Part shown: piece after piece, positions 1 through 8,151 of the stretch
Layout: each line of letters opens with the position of its first letter
Position numbering within the stretch: the first letter of the stretch is position 1
DNA from: Actinobacteria bacterium UBA5176
GTDB lineage: Bacteria > Actinomycetota > UBA4738
DNA: 8,151 bases
Assembly: GCA_002413305.1 (NCBI GenBank)
Contig: DHWS01000138.1
Coordinates: 1 to 8,151, forward strand
Direction of reading: 5' to 3'
The notes under the pieces: generated by a model
Databases searched by the model: none
Seen by the model: only the letters and a program-made list of their open reading frames with translations
What the model was told of the DNA's origin: nothing
Program-made: the position numbers and the translations under genes

Positions 1-272
1 TTCTTGATGTAGTCGGCGTGGCCCGGGCAGTCCACGTGCGCGTAGTGCCGGTTCTCGGTTTGGTATTCGACGTGGGCGATGGCGATGGTGATGCCGCGCT
101 CCCGCTCCTCGGGCGCCTTGTCGATCTGGTCGAACGGCGTGAAGTCGGCCAGGCCCTTGGCCGCCAGCACCTTCGTGATGGCCGCGGTCAAGGTGGTCTT
201 CCCGTGGTCGATGTGGCCGATCGTCCCGATGTTGACGTGCGGCTTGTTCCTCTGGAACTTCTCCTTCGGCAT
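1..272 (-). CDS. tuf: Elongation factor Tu, N-terminal part (cut by left window edge)
   Basis: EF-Tu is the GTPase that delivers aminoacyl-tRNA to the ribosomal A site in the cytoplasm. About 90 N-terminal residues of a roughly 400-residue protein are present; the rest lies left of position 1. Reading from ATG at 272, the start is [20 protein letters not shown], followed by the P-loop GHIDHGKT (residues 19-26), the switch I region around [11 protein letters not shown] (54-63) and the switch II motif DCPGHADY (81-88). This is unmistakable EF-Tu. The start is firm: AAGGAG at 279-284 sits 6 nt upstream, and the fusA stop lies only 26 nt before the ATG. It is the last visible gene of the str operon (rpsL-rpsG-fusA-tuf) and probably depends on the promoter upstream of rpsL, though a second promoter inside fusA cannot be excluded. 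The Ile in GHIDHGKT is a mild variant of the usual Val. A second tuf copy elsewhere is possible but cannot be judged here. Confidence 0.97.
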
Positions 273-298
273 CTCTCGCTCCTTCTCCTCGCCCGGGC

Positions 299-2470
<2,172 letters not shown>

Positions 2471-2493
2471 CTCAGACACCCCTTCCGCAAAAC

Positions 2494-2516
2494 GCCGGGC
2501 CCGCTCCGGACCCGGC
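2494..2516 (-). terminator. Terminator-like hairpin between rpsG and fusA
   Basis: On the minus strand GCCGGGTCC pairs with GGGCCCGGC (arms 2508-2516 and 2494-2502), giving 9 bp with one T-G wobble around the 5-nt loop GGAGC. The hairpin is followed at once by GTTTTG (T run at 2489-2492). It fills most of the gap between the rpsG stop (2537) and the fusA Shine-Dalgarno. By shape it resembles an intrinsic terminator with a short U-tract. Because fusA and tuf lie downstream in the same operon, it more likely acts as a partial terminator, an RNA-processing or stability element, or a protein-binding site. The structure is read from the sequence; the function is inferred. Confidence 0.45.
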
Positions 2517-2536
2517 CGACGTTTGCGTCTCGACGG

Positions 2537-3007
2537 TCACCATCGGTAGTGCGCGAACGCCTTGTTCGCCTCGGCCATCTTGTGCATGTCCTCCCGGCGC
2601 TTCACGGACGCCCCCTGGCCGTTCGCGGCGTCCATGAGCTCGCCGACCAGCCGTTCAGCCATGGAGTGCTCCTTGCGCTGGCGCGAGTAGTTCACCAGCC
2701 ACCGGAGGGCCAGTGTGGTCCCCCGGGGAGGCCGAACCTCGACCGGTACCTGATAGGAGGCGCCGCCGACCCGCCGGGAGCGCGTCTCGAGCAGGGGCCG
2801 GGCGTTCTCCACCGCCCGCTTGAGCGTGACCACCGGGTCGCCGGCCGTCCGTTCGCTGATCACCTCGAGCGCGCGGTACACGATCCGTTCGGACAGCGCC
2901 TTCTTGCCGTTCAGCAGGATCTTGTTGATGAGCTGGGTGACCAGGGCGTTCTGATAGATCGGGTCCGGTTCGATCACGCGCCGGGTGGCAGGTCCCTTCC
3001 GTGGCAT
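2537..3007 (-). CDS. rpsG: 30S ribosomal protein S7
   Basis: S7 is a primary binding protein of the 3' domain of 16S rRNA and sits in the 30S head near the E site. The 156-residue product is the normal length for the family and is recognisable from end to end: [18 protein letters not shown] at the start, the [19 protein letters not shown] helix region (about 29-47), the [18 protein letters not shown] beta-hairpin region (near 88-95), [10 protein letters not shown] (near 99-108), and the C-terminus NKAFAHYRW. The ATG at 3007 is supported by AGGGGG at 3017-3022, 9 nt upstream, which overlaps the TAG stop of rpsL (3021-3023). The two genes are 13 nt apart, so translational coupling is likely. 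In E. coli the rpsL-rpsG gap carries the S7 autoregulatory site; here 13 nt is too short to hold such a structure on its own, so any S7 feedback would need sequence inside the flanking genes or a different site. Confidence 0.98.
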
Positions 3008-3020
3008 CGCTCGGATCCCC

Positions 3021-3392
3021 CTACGCGCCGGCCTTCGCGCCGTAGCGCGAGCGGGCCTTCTTGCGGTCTCGGACGCCGGAGGTGTCGAGCGTGCCGCGGA
3101 CGATCTTGTAGCGAACGCCCGGGAGGTCCTTCACCCGGCCGCCGCGGACCAGCACGATCGAGTGTTCCTGCAGGTTATGGCCGATGCCGGGGATGTAGGC
3201 GGTGACCTCGATGCCCGTCGTCAGACGGACGCGGGCGACCTTGCGAAGCGCCGAGTTCGGCTTCTTGGGAGTGACGGTGTACACGCGCGTGCAGACGCCA
3301 CGCCGCTGCGGAGACGAACGGAGCGCGGGGCTCTTCGTCTTCGTTCGCGGGCGCTCACGCCCGTTCCTGACAAGCTGCTGTACCGTCGGCAT
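3021..3392 (-). CDS. rpsL: 30S ribosomal protein S12
   Basis: S12 lies at the decoding centre of the 30S subunit and influences translational accuracy; mutations in it cause streptomycin resistance in many bacteria. The 123-residue product starts [14 protein letters not shown] and contains [20 protein letters not shown] (38-57), [20 protein letters not shown] (71-90) and the tail [16 protein letters not shown]. The lysines at the classical streptomycin sites (43 and 88) are present, so the allele looks wild type. The Asp at 89, the residue methylthiolated by RimO in E. coli, is also present. The ATG at 3392 matches the family start exactly, and GGAG (3397-3400) lies 4 nt upstream within GGAGAG. 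This is the first gene of the str operon; the promoter at 3548-3577 and the hairpins in the leader are upstream. No rpoC lies directly upstream; the next gene that way is an antiporter. Confidence 0.98.
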
Positions 3393-3445
3393 GTCTCTCC
3401 AGTTCGCTTCAATCTCGTCTTCGCCCTGTCGAGGAATGACGAAAA

Positions 3446-3463
3446 CCCGGCCAGCCGGCCAGG
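3446..3463 (-). terminator. Terminator-like hairpin in the str operon leader
   Basis: On the minus strand CCTGGCC (3457-3463) pairs with GGCCGGG (3446-3452) across a GGCT loop: 7 bp with one T-G wobble, followed directly by TTTT (3442-3445) and then CGTC. It lies downstream of the predicted promoter (about 78 nt after the expected transcript start) and 54 nt upstream of the rpsL ATG, so it is inside the leader rather than at a gene end. Upstream of it in the same RNA are a 7-bp stem CGGCACG/CGTGCCG (arms 3532-3538 and 3516-3522) and two alternative pairings of one CTCCCTG segment, with CAGGGA or with GGGAG. The layout would suit attenuation, but only four U residues follow the stem, so termination efficiency is uncertain. 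Confidence 0.4.
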
Positions 3464-3547
3464 CCCAGGGAGCAGCACCAGCCGCACTCCCTTGTGGTCC
3501 CTGCTAGAGGCGTTACGGCACGCGCTACTTCCGTGCCGCGAACGAGA

Positions 3548-3577
3548 ATCCTACAAATGGAACGCCACTGCTGTCAA
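3548..3577 (-). promoter_or_regulatory. Predicted sigma70/SigA-type promoter of the str operon
   Basis: On the minus strand a perfect -35 hexamer TTGACA (3572-3577) is followed after 18 bp by TAGGAT (3548-3553), a 4/6 match to TATAAT, with TG directly preceding it. The expected transcript start is near 3541, giving a leader of about 150 nt before rpsL. It lies 60 nt after the antiporter stop codon, in the only sizeable non-coding gap upstream of the ribosomal genes, which is where a housekeeping promoter is expected. The element is seen directly; use and start point are inferred. Confidence 0.7.
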
Positions 3578-3610
3578 CGCGGCGACCTGCGCAAACGCGT
3601 TTCGGAGCCG

Positions 3611-3649
3611 GTGGGCGGGCGCCCGTCGGGCCGGCCTTCAGCCCGCCAC
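3611..3649 (-). terminator. GC-rich hairpin across the antiporter stop codon
   Basis: On the minus strand GTGGCGGGC (3641-3649) can pair with GCCCGCCCAC (3611-3620) with one bulged base; the TGA stop of the antiporter gene (3638-3640) lies in the loop. No T run follows. It could be a U-less terminator or a 3'-end stability hairpin separating the antiporter transcript from the str promoter about 35 nt further on. In DNA this GC-rich such pairings also arise by chance. Confidence 0.25.
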
Positions 3650-4945
3650 GACCTCCTCGCCTTCCCCCGGCCGCTCCACGCCGGTCGGTTCCTCGTCTTC
3701 CCGCTGGCGCCGGTCCCGGTTGATGCAGAAGCGCAGCAGCGGGGGGGCGGAGAGAGAAGTGAGCACGGCGATCACGACGATCGTCGAGTACATCGGGGGC
3801 GTCAGAACCCCGATCGACACCCCGATCGCGGCGATGACCAGCTCCATCGCGCCTCGAGCGTTCAGCCCGGCCCCCACTGCAAGCGCCTCCCACCGCGGGA
3901 TGCCACCGAGCCGGGCGCCGACCGATCCCCCGATCAACTTGCCGGCGAACGCGACGACCAGCGCGACCAGGGCCACGGGCAGCGCCGACCCCCGCAGCGT
4001 GGTGAGGTCGACCTTGATGCCCGTGTAGGCGAAGAAGAACGGTACGAAGAACGCCATCCCGACCCGGCGGATCGACTCGACCGCCTGGTGGTCGAGTGCC
4101 TCACGCGGGGTCCGGGCGATCAGGATGCCGGCCAGGAAGCAGCCGAGGACGAGGTGAACGTGGATCGCCTGAGTGGCCGCTCCACCCGCGAAGACGATCG
4201 CCAGGATCACGGTGGTCTGGGCGAACGGGACCCGCAGGCGCCGGCTCGCACGGAGCGCGAGGTTGACCAAGCGCTGACCGATGGTGAAGGAGAACGCCAC
4301 GAAGATCCCCGTGCCGAGCAGGGCGGTCGCCACGGACGTGGCGTCGACTCGATGGCTGAGGGCCAGCCCGGAAACCACGGCCAACACGATCCAGCCGACC
4401 GTATCATCGGCCACCGCGGTCGAGATTATCAACATCCCCACGCGGGATCCGAACAGGTCGAGATCCATGAGGATGCGGGCGATCACCGGAATGGCGGAGA
4501 TCGACATGGCGGTGGCCACGAACAGCGCGAACACGGGCCGCGCGATGTCCGGGCCGATGAGGTTCGACGGGATCAGCCAGCCCAGCCCGAACCCCATCGC
4601 GAACGGCAGGCCGAAGGCACCGATCCATCCGTAGAGGGCGGCCCGCCCGGCCCGCCGGAGCAGTTCGAGCCGGACCTCGAACCCGGACAGTACGACCAGA
4701 AATATCACCCCGATCCATCCCACCATCTCCAGGAACCCACGCCCGGCCGGGTCGGCCGGGAACAGCGCGAGGAACCCTCCCGGCCACAACTTGCCGAACA
4801 GCGACGGCCCCAGGCATATCCCGACCACCAGCTCGCCGACCACCTGAGCCACGCCTAGCCGGAGCGCGATCTCCCCTCCGACGCGGGCGGCAACCACCAG
4901 CAGCCCCACTTGGATTAGGAACAACAGGAGCTGGTGCTCGGTCAC
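3638..4945 (-). CDS. CPA2-family cation:proton antiporter (Na+/H+ or K+/H+ exchanger)
   Basis: This is an integral inner-membrane transporter expected to exchange H+ for Na+ or K+, serving pH and ion homeostasis. The 435 residues are almost wholly hydrophobic segments, about 12 to 13 predicted helices between residues 5 and 405, followed by a charged C-terminal tail of about 25 residues (RDRRQREDEEP...). Family hallmarks include GELVVGICLGPS (37-48), SISAIPVIARILMD (148-161), the ion-binding Asp pair in STAVADDTVGW (D180, D181), a conserved Lys in AFAGKLIGG (K336) and GLNARGAMELVIA (360-372). There is no TrkA-N nucleotide-binding domain, so it is a transport core only and differs from the full KefB/KefC layout. 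The GTG at 4945 is the first possible start, since an in-frame TGA lies two codons upstream; the Shine-Dalgarno is weak, at most CAGG about 9 nt before. The 198-nt upstream gap shows no convincing promoter. The substrate ion cannot be decided from sequence. It is co-directional with the sugar transferase upstream and the str operon downstream, with no obvious functional link to either. Confidence 0.92.
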   Translation of the reverse strand: MTEHQLLLFLIQVGLLVVAARVGGEIALRLGVAQVVGELVVGICLGPSLFGKLWPGGFLALFPADPAGRGFLEMVGWIGVIFLVVLSGFEVRLELLRRAGRAALYGWIGAFGLPFAMGFGLGWLIPSNLIGPDIARPVFALFVATAMSISAIPVIARILMDLDLFGSRVGMLIISTAVADDTVGWIVLAVVSGLALSHRVDATSVATALLGTGIFVAFSFTIGQRLVNLALRASRRLRVPFAQTTVILAIVFAGGAATQAIHVHLVLGCFLAGILIARTPREALDHQAVESIRRVGMAFFVPFFFAYTGIKVDLTTLRGSALPVALVALVVAFAGKLIGGSVGARLGGIPRWEALAVGAGLNARGAMELVIAAIGVSIGVLTPPMYSTIVVIAVLTSLSAPPLLRFCINRDRRQREDEEPTGVERPGEGEEVVAG

Positions 4946-5056
4946 GGTTCAGCCTGACACGGAACCACACAGGAGATCGGCATCTCGCGGAGTGTCCTTC
5001 GTCCTGCAGATCTTCGCTGTGCCCTGCCTCACAGTGGGCCGGTGTGGTCGGTCACG

Positions 5057-5075
5057 CCGGGCTCAGCGACCCCGG
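5057..5075 (-). terminator. Weak hairpin in the gap between sugar transferase and antiporter
   Basis: The 198-nt gap 4946-5143 carries little. The clearest structure is CCGGG (5071-5075) pairing with CCCGG (5057-5061) over a 9-nt loop on the minus strand, about 70 nt after the transferase stop and without a T run. I saw no strong -35/-10 pair for the antiporter in this gap, so that gene may be read through from the transferase or use a promoter I do not recognise. Confidence 0.2.
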
Positions 5076-5143
5076 TCGAGGACCGCTTCCTATCTTCCAC
5101 GAGTCAGAGTCTCCCACCACGAGCGGGACGGGAACCCGGACGT

Positions 5144-6619
5144 CTAGAAGGCACCCTTTCGGAACAGCACCGCAGGGATGGTCTTCACGAGGATGAAGAG
5201 ATCGTACGTGATGGTCCAGTTCTCGATGTAGAAGAGGTCGAGGCGGACGTAGTCGTCGAACGGCAGGTGGCTCCTGCCCTGCACCTGCCAGATACCGGTC
5301 ATCCCGGGCCGAACCTCGAGCCGGTCACGGTGCCAGTCCTCGTAGGTGGCGACCTCCCTGGGCAGCGCGGGCCGGGGACCGACCAGGCTCATCGTCCCGC
5401 CCAGGACGTTCACGAGCTGGGGCAGCTCGTCGAGGCTCCAGGCCCGGAGCCAGCGACCCACCTTCGTCACCCGCGGGTCGCTCCGCATCTTGAACAGCGG
5501 TCCGGAGGCTTCGTTCATGGAGGCGAGCTCCGGCAGCAGGAGGTCGGCGCTCCGGATCATCGTCCGGAACTTGAACATAGTGAACGGTTGACCCTGTCGG
5601 CCGATCCGCTCCGAGCGGTACAGCACCGGCCCCCGGGAGGTCAGCTTGATCAGGGCGGCCACGACCAGAAGTAGCGGCATGGCCACGGCCAGGGTGAGAG
5701 CGCCGACGACCACGTCGAACACGCGCTTGGCGATCGCCTGGAACCCGGACAGGCCCGCCGGGTGCAGCGAGAGCGCTAGCAGATTCCCCACGGGCTGGAC
5801 GGTGAGCCGCGAGGCCAGGATGTCCGACAGGTTCGCCGAGACCCGCACCTCCAGCTTGTTGCGACGCAGGACCTTGATGAGGACCTTCATCACGTCCGGT
5901 TCGATGGCGGTCGACGCGACGAAGACGCATTCGATCCCATGCTCCTGGACGAGCTCGCCGAGCCGGTCCAGCGATCCGAGGACACGGAGGTCGGGCCCGG
6001 CCATCCAGCTCGAGCCCGTGTGGACCGCGCCCACAGCGAGGAAACCTGAGGCCGGCCTCTTGAGCGCCTCCGCGATGTGCTCTGCCTCCTCATTGGCCCC
6101 CACGATCAGGGTTCGGAAACGCAATCGCCCGGCCGTCCGAAGCCGTCCCATCTGCTTGTGCCACAGCTGGCGGAAGACCAGGACGAGCCCGAGCGTGAGC
6201 AGCCAGGTCACCCCGAGCCACGCATGCGAGAGGAGTTGCTCCTGTGCGCGCCAGAAGAGGGGCAGGGCCAGCAGCCCGACACCGGCCGTCACGGCCGTCG
6301 CCGGGAGCAGCCGGCGGAACTCCTCGGCCGGCGTCAGCCGGCCGGCTGAATACAGATGGAACGCGGCGAACACGATCACGAAGACCACCGGCGCCACCAA
6401 CAGCAGGCCGATGAGGGCGTGTCCGAGGCTCAGCCCCTTGTTGTGCAGCACCCGAGTGACAAGGATGGCTGTTTCCAGCGCCAGGACGTCCGTTACCACA
6501 AAGCCGAAGCTGATCCTTCGATAGAGCGCCGACGTACTGGCCCACGGTATCGTCGGTACCTGCCCACGAAACACGGTAAGGGAGTCTTGCCGTGCTCTCC
6601 GGGTTTCGGGGTTGGCCAA
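5144..6619 (-). CDS. Polyprenyl-phosphate sugar-1-phosphate transferase (WbaP/WcaJ-type, exopolysaccharide initiation)
   Basis: The enzyme transfers a sugar-1-phosphate from a nucleotide sugar to undecaprenyl phosphate at the cytoplasmic face of the inner membrane, the first committed step of exopolysaccharide, capsule or O-unit assembly. The 491 residues match the large form of the family: about four N-terminal membrane helices (about 35-150), a Rossmann-like CoA-binding-type domain beginning RTLIVGANEEAEHIAEAL (169-186), then the catalytic bacterial sugar transferase domain (about 297-491). The latter starts with the membrane-associated KRVFDVVVGALTL (298-310) and includes SERIGRQGQPFTMFKFRTM (336-354), the Asp-Glu catalytic dyad in SLDELPQL (D397, E398), SLVGPRP (411-417) and RPGMTGIWQVQGRS (437-450). 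The start is TTG 6619, supported by GAAGGAG 5 nt upstream and a promoter at 6649-6677. Sugar specificity cannot be read from sequence. The gene is divergent from the flippase gene at 6709, which supports a Wzx/Wzy-type pathway. Confidence 0.94.
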   Translation of the reverse strand: MANPETRRARQDSLTVFRGQVPTIPWASTSALYRRISFGFVVTDVLALETAILVTRVLHNKGLSLGHALIGLLLVAPVVFVIVFAAFHLYSAGRLTPAEEFRRLLPATAVTAGVGLLALPLFWRAQEQLLSHAWLGVTWLLTLGLVLVFRQLWHKQMGRLRTAGRLRFRTLIVGANEEAEHIAEALKRPASGFLAVGAVHTGSSWMAGPDLRVLGSLDRLGELVQEHGIECVFVASTAIEPDVMKVLIKVLRRNKLEVRVSANLSDILASRLTVQPVGNLLALSLHPAGLSGFQAIAKRVFDVVVGALTLAVAMPLLLVVAALIKLTSRGPVLYRSERIGRQGQPFTMFKFRTMIRSADLLLPELASMNEASGPLFKMRSDPRVTKVGRWLRAWSLDELPQLVNVLGGTMSLVGPRPALPREVATYEDWHRDRLEVRPGMTGIWQVQGRSHLPFDDYVRLDLFYIENWTITYDLFILVKTIPAVLFRKGAF

Positions 6620-6648
6620 TACCGCTCCTTCGTGTGGCCGATAGCAGG

Positions 6649-6677
6649 AGGATAGAGGCTAATCACCTACGTGTCTA
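6649..6677 (-). promoter_or_regulatory. Predicted promoter of the sugar transferase gene
   Basis: On the minus strand TAGACA (6672-6677, 5/6 to TTGACA) is followed after 17 bp by TATCCT (6649-6654, 4/6 to TATAAT). The expected transcript start is near 6642, giving a leader of about 22 nt that contains the GAAGGAG ribosome-binding site of the TTG start at 6619. Spacing and position are all typical. A short direct repeat GATAG-CAGGAG-GATAG (plus strand 6640-6655) overlaps the -10. Confidence 0.6.
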
Positions 6678-6679
6678 GG
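6666..6679. promoter_or_regulatory. Candidate operator: CCTA-N6-TAGG inverted repeat over the -35
   Basis: CCTA (6666-6669) and TAGG (6676-6679) form a small inverted repeat around CGTGTC, lying on the -35 of the transferase promoter and about 20 bp upstream of the -10 of the divergent flippase promoter. A protein bound here could affect both genes. The arms are only 4 bp, so chance is a real alternative. Confidence 0.2.
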
Positions 6680-6695
6680 AAGCGGATGGGGCCGG

Positions 6696-6701
6696 TACAC
6701 T
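6696..6701 (+). promoter_or_regulatory. Predicted -10 element of the HTH-flippase gene (leaderless start)
   Basis: TACACT at 6696-6701 is a good -10 hexamer on the plus strand. Its last base is 8 nt before the A of ATG 6709, the usual distance to a transcript start, so the mRNA would begin at or next to the start codon. That fits the absence of a Shine-Dalgarno before this ATG; leaderless genes are common in Actinobacteria. The -35 region (TGTCTA or overlapping, near 6672-6678) is poor. Confidence 0.4.
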
Positions 6702-6708
6702 CCTTCCG

Positions 6709-8151
6709 ATGCCAGGAGGATCACGACGCGCTGACCACCGGGGCCGCCGGCTCGGTGGGGGCCACACCGCGTCTGGGGAAACCTCGTCCGGCGCATCGGA
6801 GACGCGCCGCTCCGCCCGAGGGGCCTCGGCTCGAGGTTCCTCGTCTCGAGGTTCCTCGGCTCGACCCCCGGCGCCTGGTCCTTCCGACGGACGGGGGGCC
6901 TCGGCTCGCCACGGCGGCGGTGCTGCCGGCCACACCAGCCGGCAGACCACTCCACCGTCCGGCGTGCCAGACCTGCTGACCCGCGAGGAAGCCGCGAAGA
7001 GGGCGGGGATCACCTACAACACCATCCTGTTGTGGGAGAAGGCCGGGCGGCTCAAGCCCGTCCCCCGCGGCGACGCCCGCGATGAGCATTTCTACATTTC
7101 CGAGAGGGAACTCGACCAGGTCCTCCAGCTCGAGGCGCAGCTCGACGCGGTCGGTATCTGGGGCGTGACCCCGCCTTCCGGCCTCACCGAGTCGCCGGCG
7201 GAGGCGATCTTCCCGGCCAGGGGGCGTCGCCGCAAGCGGACGGCGGACGGCGATCTCGCCAAGTTCGCCCAGGACACCGTGGTCAAGTTCGCCGGCGGGG
7301 CGGCCAACGGCCTGTTCGCGTTCCTCGGCGCCATCGTGATCACCAGGGGTTTGCACGCGAGCGAGGCGGGGGTGTTCTTCGAGGCTCTCGCCATCTACAC
7401 CATCGTGAGTAATACGATCGAACTCGGGGCCGACACCGGACTGATGCGGATGATCCCCCGCTACCGGGCACTGGGCAGGACGCAGGATGTCCGGCGGACC
7501 CTGAAGGTGGCCCTGTGGCCCATCGTCCCCATCGGGACGGTGGCCGCCGTGGCGATGTTCGTCTTCGCCCCGCAGCTCTCCCGGATCTTCACGGAGCACG
7601 CCCACCACGGGGCCGGGTCGATCGCGCTGATCCCGTATATCCGGGTCTTCGCGGTGGCCGTTCCTCTCACGTCCCTCACCACCGTCATCCTTGCCGGCAC
7701 GAGGGGCTTCGGCACGATGGTCCCCTCGGTGGCGATCAACAACGTGGCCGAGCCTGCCCTTCGCCCGGTTCTGGTCCTGGGAGTCCTGCTCGCCGGCCTG
7801 GGAAGCGTCGCGGTCGCCCTGGCATGGGTGGCGCCGGTCGCCCTCGGGATCCCCGTCGTGGTGCTGTGGCTGTACCGTCTGCTCCGCCGGGCCGAGCGGC
7901 GGGACCACACGGACCGGACCGCACCCCGCCCCAACAGCGACCTGGCATCGGAGTTCTGGCGCTTCTCATGGCCTCGGGGGCTGGCCGCGGTCTTCTCTGT
8001 AGTGGTCACCTGGCTCGACACCCTGCTCATCGGGGCGCTACGGACGACCCGGGAGGCCGGGATCTACACGGCGGCCACCCGCTATACCCTTGTCGGCGCC
8101 GCGCTGATCCAGGCCGTGGTGATCGTGATCTCCCCGTTGATCGCTTCCATG
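6709..8151 (+). CDS. HTH-domain / Wzx-like polysaccharide flippase fusion (cut by right window edge)
   Basis: The frame is open from ATG 6709 to the right edge (481 codons, no stop). Residues 1-85 are low-complexity and basic, rich in Arg, Ser and Gly, with SARGS-type repeats, probably disordered. Residues about 89-139 form a MerR/excisionase-like helix-turn-helix: LLTREEAAKRAGITYNTI (89-106), then LLWEKAGRLKPV, a short wing, and FYISERELDQVL. A linker (140-181) ends in the basic RGRRRKR. From about 183 onward is a polytopic membrane region with about 8 helices visible, including VVKFAGGAANGLFAFLGAIV, GADTGLMRMIPRYRALGR and WLDTLLIGALRTTREAGIYT, typical of the N-terminal half of Wzx/MVF-type lipid-linked oligosaccharide flippases. 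Such proteins normally start on the cytoplasmic side, so the HTH would face DNA. GTG 6964 is an alternative start just before the HTH; it has no Shine-Dalgarno. Third-position G/C preference is strong after 6964 and weaker before, so the first 85 residues are the least certain part. The HTH-to-flippase continuity does not depend on which start is right. Confidence 0.82.
   Translation, partial: MPGGSRRADHRGRRLGGGHTASGETSSGASETRRSARGASARGSSSRGSSARPPAPGPSDGRGASARHGGGAAGHTSRQTTPPSGVPDLLTREEAAKRAGITYNTILLWEKAGRLKPVPRGDARDEHFYISERELDQVLQLEAQLDAVGIWGVTPPSGLTESPAEAIFPARGRRRKRTADGDLAKFAQDTVVKFAGGAANGLFAFLGAIVITRGLHASEAGVFFEALAIYTIVSNTIELGADTGLMRMIPRYRALGRTQDVRRTLKVALWPIVPIGTVAAVAMFVFAPQLSRIFTEHAHHGAGSIALIPYIRVFAVAVPLTSLTTVILAGTRGFGTMVPSVAINNVAEPALRPVLVLGVLLAGLGSVAVALAWVAPVALGIPVVVLWLYRLLRRAERRDHTDRTAPRPNSDLASEFWRFSWPRGLAAVFSVVVTWLDTLLIGALRTTREAGIYTAATRYTLVGAALIQAVVIVISPLIASM
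6811..6864 (+). repeat. 15-bp imperfect tandem repeat encoding SARGS-type pentapeptides
   Basis: Units begin at 6811, 6826, 6841 and 6856 (the last partial). The two clearest are TCGGCTCGAGGTTCC and TCGTCTCGAGGTTCC, differing at one base in 15; the first unit is diverged. In the flippase frame they read SARGA, SARGS, SSRGS, SAR (residues 35-52). A further GASAR copy appears near residues 63-67. The period of 15 keeps the frame, so copy number could change without breaking the gene. Confidence 0.7.

Follow-up and report, generated by a model that had tools for sequence, protein, structure and literature searches.

A predicted winged helix-turn-helix domain joined to a predicted polysaccharide flippase in an actinobacterial glycan locus

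Could a polysaccharide flippase carry a regulator of its own pathway in the same chain? The question is raised by an 8,151-nucleotide stretch of Actinobacteria bacterium UBA5176 (contig DHWS01000138.1 of assembly GCA_002413305.1, positions 1 to 8,151; hereafter the window), which is one of the 176 contigs of a fragmented draft genome. At the end of the window, a forward-strand frame is open throughout from 6709 to 8151 and joins a helix-turn-helix (HTH) domain of the HTH_17/MerR type (residues 89–140) to a flippase core (residues 187–480), which is the uninterrupted fusion that the initial annotation had described. To our knowledge, how the start of glycan synthesis is balanced against the export of lipid-linked intermediates is poorly understood. 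If the regulatory reading developed below is true, a flippase with a built-in regulator-type head would make the feedback between start and export directly testable in one protein; if the HTH docks a protein instead, it would show how such flippases are placed in the cell.

Profile searches and structure prediction were both suggested as checks in the initial annotation. The AlphaFold prediction has a winged HTH, followed by a disordered linker and then by a core resembling MurJ and WzxE. The first 299 residues of the core (7255–8151, plus strand) score 51.6 bits against PF01943 (Polysacc_synt; cut-off 28.2), pass the cut-off of PF13440 and also match MatE. Two homologues, P0002 (94% identical to the window protein) and P0003 (~55% identical), have the same domain order and score 49.2 and 30.8 bits against PF01943. 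The AlphaFold model of P0002 (mean predicted local distance difference test score, pLDDT, 88.1) has a polytopic core with many long helices, and its fold is of the MurJ/WzxE type (6nc6_A, template-modelling score TMt 0.83; WzxE 9g9n_A, TMt 0.71). We read the core as a predicted polysaccharide flippase of the MOP superfamily, and, going by the gene neighbourhood, it may transport undecaprenyl-linked sugar units.

The HTH domain (6973–7128, plus strand) is matched less strongly. Taken alone, the window HTH stays under the Pfam cut-offs (HTH_17, 20.6–24.6 vs. 27; MerR, 23.1–26.8 vs. 28.2), and only the P0003 HTH reaches one (MerR_1, 21.7 vs. 21.6). The AlphaFold model predicts a winged HTH with a BldC-like fold, and the nearest folds listed for it are mostly DNA binders, among them RacA, BldC, Xis, GlnR, SoxR and BmrR, with MerR also near. 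The top Foldseek match is the DNA-binding domain of RacA (15% identity), and the superposition on BldC (6ama_B) covers 52 aligned columns with a root-mean-square deviation of 1.9 and 31% identity. A sequence search of solved structures returned no informative relative, only designed repeat proteins and weak MerR matches. Sequence comparison indicates that the HTH match is more than chance, because P0002 and P0003 share 24 of the 30 residues that make up the two HTH helices, compared with 297 of 503 in the flippase core. The linker retains 7 of 28 residues in the same comparison, and conservation is poor in the third helix and the wing, at 6 of 23. The window protein and P0002 differ at 3 of 55 positions in the HTH, at 8 of 27 in the linker and at 14 of 299 in the core. 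The variable linker (7138–7254, plus strand) is mostly predicted to be disordered (P0002 residues 59–89, pLDDT < 50), with no coiled coil predicted after the HTH in the model. It contains an Ile-Trp-Gly (IWG) motif at 7156–7164 (plus strand) that is also present in P0003.

Where does the fused protein begin and end? The initial annotation had given the fusion as 6709–8151, and both ends have to be revised. The in-frame extension 6709–6963 (plus strand) lacks coding character: its guanine-cytosine (GC) fractions by codon position are 0.73/0.87/0.67, compared with a third-position GC of 0.89–0.91 in the HTH, linker and core, and its codon log-odds, from a model trained on the window's other five genes, are negative in all six frames, compared with +0.30 for the HTH, +0.14 for the linker and +0.34 for the core. 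Furthermore, the first codon of P0002 is a valine that matches GTG 6964. ATG 6709 is thus a doubtful start and GTG 6964 probably the true one, which gives a gene at 6964–8151 (plus strand) preceded by a likely untranslated extension. Because 6709–6963 is without coding character and the P0002 start matches GTG 6964, the HTH itself is likely to be the N-terminus of the fused protein. A start at ATG 6709 was considered, as the −10-like TACACT at 6696–6701 lies 7 bases upstream in a leaderless-like arrangement, but the coding signal is absent; no clear ribosome site was seen before either ATG 6709 or GTG 6964. Third-position GC is a good, though not absolute, test of coding: at one flippase locus (L063), it is 0.71 before the core and 0.94 within it, and some of the pre-core stretch may itself be untranslated, whereas the pre-core stretch of another (L068) has a high value of 0.91. 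P0003 has up to 67 extra residues ahead of its HTH, and therefore a leader is possible in that protein. At its other end, the gene runs off the contig, and the missing C-terminal part lies at the end of contig G000:C89 (5703–6248, minus strand), where 181 residues are encoded, 178 of them identical to P0002.

Is the fusion real, and how widespread is it? An assembly join or frame error that merged two neighbouring genes would be conceivable in a contig from a draft of 176 pieces, but the same join is present in P0002, which represents a cluster of 11 sequences, and in P0003, which comes from another assembly with contigs of up to 17,977 bases. The codon log-odds also show a coding signal that is continuous across the join. 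An artefact of this kind is already contradicted, and we consider it extremely improbable. The initial annotation had named two observations that would speak against the fusion, namely separate HTH and flippase genes in relatives and a sequencing indel near the join; the shared join in P0002 and P0003 answers the latter. As for the former, two genes with a stop between them were looked for in relatives and not found. The HTH and flippase did not occur as adjacent separate genes at any of the 11 named flippase loci, examined with up to 6 kb of flank (one of them, L065, has only 61 bases upstream), and no HTH was near the flippase at 29 other loci with up to 1.5 kb of flank.

The fusion is rare. 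Of 7992 scored, 296 were homologues at E ≤ 0.001; in the 120 of these that are listed, the HTH is present in two (P0002 and P0003) and absent in 118. In 61 genomes (its own and 60 relatives), a flippase match was found in 23, and an HTH at one of the 30 loci taken, that of the window. With P0003 as the query, 127 of 296 phylum genomes gave matches (up to 3 candidates scored per genome). At E ≤ 1e-5, the HTH profile had matches in 11 of the 396 phylum genomes searched, and with up to 15 candidates scored in each of the 396, no flippase-sized frame carried an HTH outside the window's own genome. In scans of 27 genomes from the order and class, all candidates were scored. The other frames matched by the profile have 41–348 residues, too short for the fusion, the 41-residue one being cut by a contig end. 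The HTH was also sought in 80 loci (L002–L081), a set covering part of the matches, since not every match became a locus; the window and a stand-alone HTH gene in genome G004 match at E ≤ 2e-6, and three further loci brought in by the HTH profile match weakly (E 8e-5 to 0.04). A first named-genome scan with the window protein (P0001) found nothing, whereas a second gave the 11 named loci mentioned above, all without the HTH. Searches by protein region for other HTH fusions returned no cluster but that of the query; they require shared 5-residue words and may therefore overlook distant fusions. Judged by the shared join and the homologues, the fusion is real, rare and present in two diverged lineages. 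As a separate observation, the HTH_17-type domain of locus L086 (G001:C71:33884-34054) is fused to a longer C-terminal portion, which, by reading, resembles a molybdate-binding TOBE domain.

The initial annotation had also stated that flippases of this family normally start at the first membrane helix, which is true of some and not of others: an N-terminal tail could be defined in 95 homologues without an HTH, and it has at least 30 residues in 45 of them (270 in the longest) and fewer in the remainder.

How did the fusion arise? In a tree of 49 cores (50 of 121 proteins were aligned, and the cut window protein was left out), P0002 and P0003 fall into a five-member clade (support 100/99) with P0004, P0005 and P0006, and P0003 groups with P0006 (93/59). 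This tree is compatible with two gains or with a single gain followed by two losses. We infer that one gain is favoured, because IWG is common to both fused forms and the HTH has the same position in each. The likely model of the donor is the stand-alone gene in G004 (G004:C28:6865-7110, L079), which encodes an 81-residue HTH with Val-Trp-Gly (VWG) near its end. This HTH is 62% identical to the window HTH over 29 residues and 50% identical to the P0003 HTH over 54. The gene sits between frames read as groES and tsaD, overlapping the end of tsaD by 15 bases, and lies on contig C28, while the flippase matches of the same genome are on C68.

What might the HTH do? We infer a regulatory role, in which the fused protein would be a membrane-tethered regulator that binds the divergent promoter region and couples expression of the initiating transferase to the state of the flippase. 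This is the likeliest single mechanism, although we hold it tentatively and at less than even confidence, with a protein-docking role close behind. In the regulatory mechanism, the HTH would bind the promoter region beside the gene, lipid-linked sugar units loading the flippase would change the reach or pairing of the HTH, and transferase expression would follow the state of the flippase. A bolder form, which we regard as rather doubtful, makes the flippase a transporter, sensor and transcription factor in one: the transport cycle would report the supply of lipid-linked sugar units to the built-in winged HTH, which would switch the transferase promoter, and no separate sensor or regulator would be needed.

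Several findings point toward the tethered regulator. The HTH helices are kept better than the core, most of the fold neighbours are DNA binders, and a DNA-binding-type domain and a membrane region are predicted in one chain, the layout of tethered regulators. In addition, the divergently transcribed neighbour (5144–6619, minus strand) is a polyprenyl glycosylphosphotransferase, the initiating sugar transferase that the initial annotation had placed there (PF02397, 218 bits; TIGR03025 above cut-off). It starts with TTG preceded by GAAGGAG and has a sigma-70-type promoter match, TAGACA-17-TATCCT (6649–6677, minus strand), the only one found, compared with a mean of 0.0 (standard deviation 0.2) in shuffles. 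With the flippase start probably at GTG 6964, the intergenic region becomes 6620–6963, and the binding target first proposed, 6620–6708, should be widened accordingly.

Within this region, a 16-nucleotide direct repeat is a candidate operator. Copy 1 (6638–6653) overlaps the −10 match of the transferase and the bases just downstream, copy 2 (6706–6721) lies just after TACACT, a −10-like element noticed by eye and not listed by the promoter scan, and the two agree at 14 of 16 positions. A repeat as good occurred in none of 100 shuffles of the 121-base region 6620–6740 and in none of 108 segments of the rest of the window. The exact motif is found at these two places only, genome-wide; allowing up to 2 mismatches, there are 16 genome sites compared with 5 for the reversed control. 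A second repeat, a 15-bp tandem repeat of 2.7 copies with CTCGAG cores (6824–6864), falls in the likely untranslated stretch before GTG, and no other place in the genome comes within 3 mismatches of a 24-nucleotide piece of it. The region 6620–6965 (346 bases) gave 9 repeat matches, largely from the tandem repeat, and at least one match was obtained in 1 of 30 shuffles.

A number of findings weigh against the regulatory reading. The direct repeat is known from one genome, its width was chosen after inspection, and ~2% of 121-base segments elsewhere in the same genome are as good (18 of 836 when the segments overlap, 8 of 418 when they do not). The net charge of the HTH is on the acidic side (−2 in the window, −1 in P0002 and −1 in P0003), while 13 other HTH_17/MerR domains of the genome have a median net charge of +3 (range −1 to +6; 17 rows minus 2 window rows and 2 duplicates, with some of the 55-residue stretches starting inside the domain). 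The stand-alone relative in G004 has a net charge of +1. According to passages of PMC5859096, BldC contacts bases through Lys26 and Arg30 and also contacts DNA through His46-Arg47-Arg48 of the wing, and RacA uses an arginine equivalent to Arg30. In a tentative pairing with BldC made by eye, the positions of Arg30, Lys26 and His46-Arg47-Arg48 hold Leu, Asn and Glu-His-Phe in the window and Leu, Asn and Gly-Thr-Ile in P0003, which leaves one His in the window's wing as the sole counterpart. P0003 has the MerR-type arginine that follows Thr-Ile, where the window has Leu. The loss of Arg30 alone is not decisive, because several MerR domains of the same genome also lack Arg at that position when read by eye. 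Furthermore, the sister flippases P0004, P0005 and P0006 have no HTH, and the flippase can therefore do without one.

The tails of HTH-less flippases supply the main support for the closest competitor of the regulator, in which the HTH is a protein-docking domain and no DNA binder, and brings the flippase to a partner in the cytoplasm, in the manner of RodZ–MreB or CbpM–J-domain. The motif D-[ILV]-W occurs 13 times, spread over 8 of the 53 tails with at least 25 residues, compared with a mean of 0.46 and a maximum of 4 in 500 shuffles. The 53 tails are what is left of the 98 of 121 proteins with a definable tail after three HTH forms and 42 short tails are set aside, and the eight with the motif (P0007, P0008, P0009, P0022, P0028, P0040, P0046 and P0054) stand for about six, because P0022 and P0040 are near copies, as are P0046 and P0054. 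The tails are on the cytoplasmic side, and the residue after the motif, which may be a docking motif, is often G, A, T or S; in the HTH forms, IWG is not preceded by Asp. The L068 tail has a looser form, SRIWSS. Such a motif speaks for partner docking by these tails, but the fold neighbours listed for the HTH are mostly DNA-binding proteins, the RodZ HTH belongs to another family and is tied to one membrane helix, and the proposal has no known partner, which makes it somewhat doubtful in our view.

The HTH might instead be a passenger with little present function, a chance join that is now being lost. Its rarity (2 of 120 listed homologues), its absence from P0004, P0005 and P0006 within a clade of five and the window scores below the Pfam cut-offs fit such a history. 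Against it stand the conservation of the helices, which in the comparison of P0002 with P0003 exceeds that of the flippase core, and the few HTH changes relative to the linker at 94% identity, and we consider it unlikely. Less likely still, and in our estimate very improbable, is a RacA-like anchor that ties DNA to the membrane at sites of glycan export without control of transcription. Such an anchor is suggested by the top Foldseek match, but that match has only 15% identity, the model has no coiled coil beyond the HTH, and the arginine of RacA that is equivalent to BldC Arg30 (passages of PMC5859096) is Leu here in the by-eye pairing. A tethered regulator thus continues to be our tentative preference.

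The wider neighbourhood is that of a glycan locus. Contig C89, which carries the end of the gene, continues with frames read as a glycosyltransferase, a sugar-nucleotide epimerase and reductase, and a glycosidase, and therefore the flippase stands between the initiating transferase and other glycan genes. On the other side, within 1–6619 of the window, the glycan genes adjoin a ribosomal str-operon stretch (tuf, fusA, rpsG and rpsL by reading of the translations), with a CPA2-type antiporter between the two (best match TIGR00932, below cut-off).

How does the fused protein compare with known systems? It resembles the MOP flippases (Wzx/WzxE, MurJ) in its PF01943/PF13440 matches, its MurJ and WzxE folds and its glycan-gene setting, and differs from them in the extra N-terminal winged HTH and disordered linker, absent in 118 of the 120 listed homologues. 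Its predicted head is like the BldC-like/MerR-like winged HTH proteins in fold, but BldC-like regulators stand alone at ~68 residues, whereas here the domain is part of a ~610-residue membrane protein, is net acidic and, in the by-eye pairing with BldC, has no counterpart of Lys26, Arg30 and most of the basic wing. The stand-alone HTH of G004 is alike in sequence and in its VWG, and unlike in not being fused. RodZ is likewise a membrane protein with an N-terminal HTH, but has a single membrane helix where the core here is polytopic, and CbpM (complex 3ucs) shares the MerR-like fold and binds a J-domain. The N-terminal HTH of RodZ binds MreB, as described in passages of PMC3599482.

Close parallels are the one-component regulators ToxR, CadC and BcrR, in which, according to passages of PMC5936718, PMC10269533 and PMC3968067, an HTH is joined to membrane segments; in these as in TcpP, a single chain holds a cytoplasmic HTH and its membrane tether. 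In CadC, a disordered linker of ~50 residues connects the winged HTH to the membrane helix, and the winged HTH binds DNA while held at the membrane (passages of PMC5936718). The fused flippase has the same order of N-terminal winged HTH, flexible linker and membrane part, with a transporter core in place of the periplasmic sensor of CadC. BcrR is described as one-component and transmembrane, with the transporter under its control, BcrAB, being a separate entity. Among the titles and abstract openings surveyed, we met no HTH–flippase fusion, and in these and the passages seen no membrane-tethered regulator containing a whole transporter. The HTH–flippase fusion is a new form of the tethered-HTH kind, in which, unlike in these transmembrane regulators, the membrane part is a complete predicted transporter.
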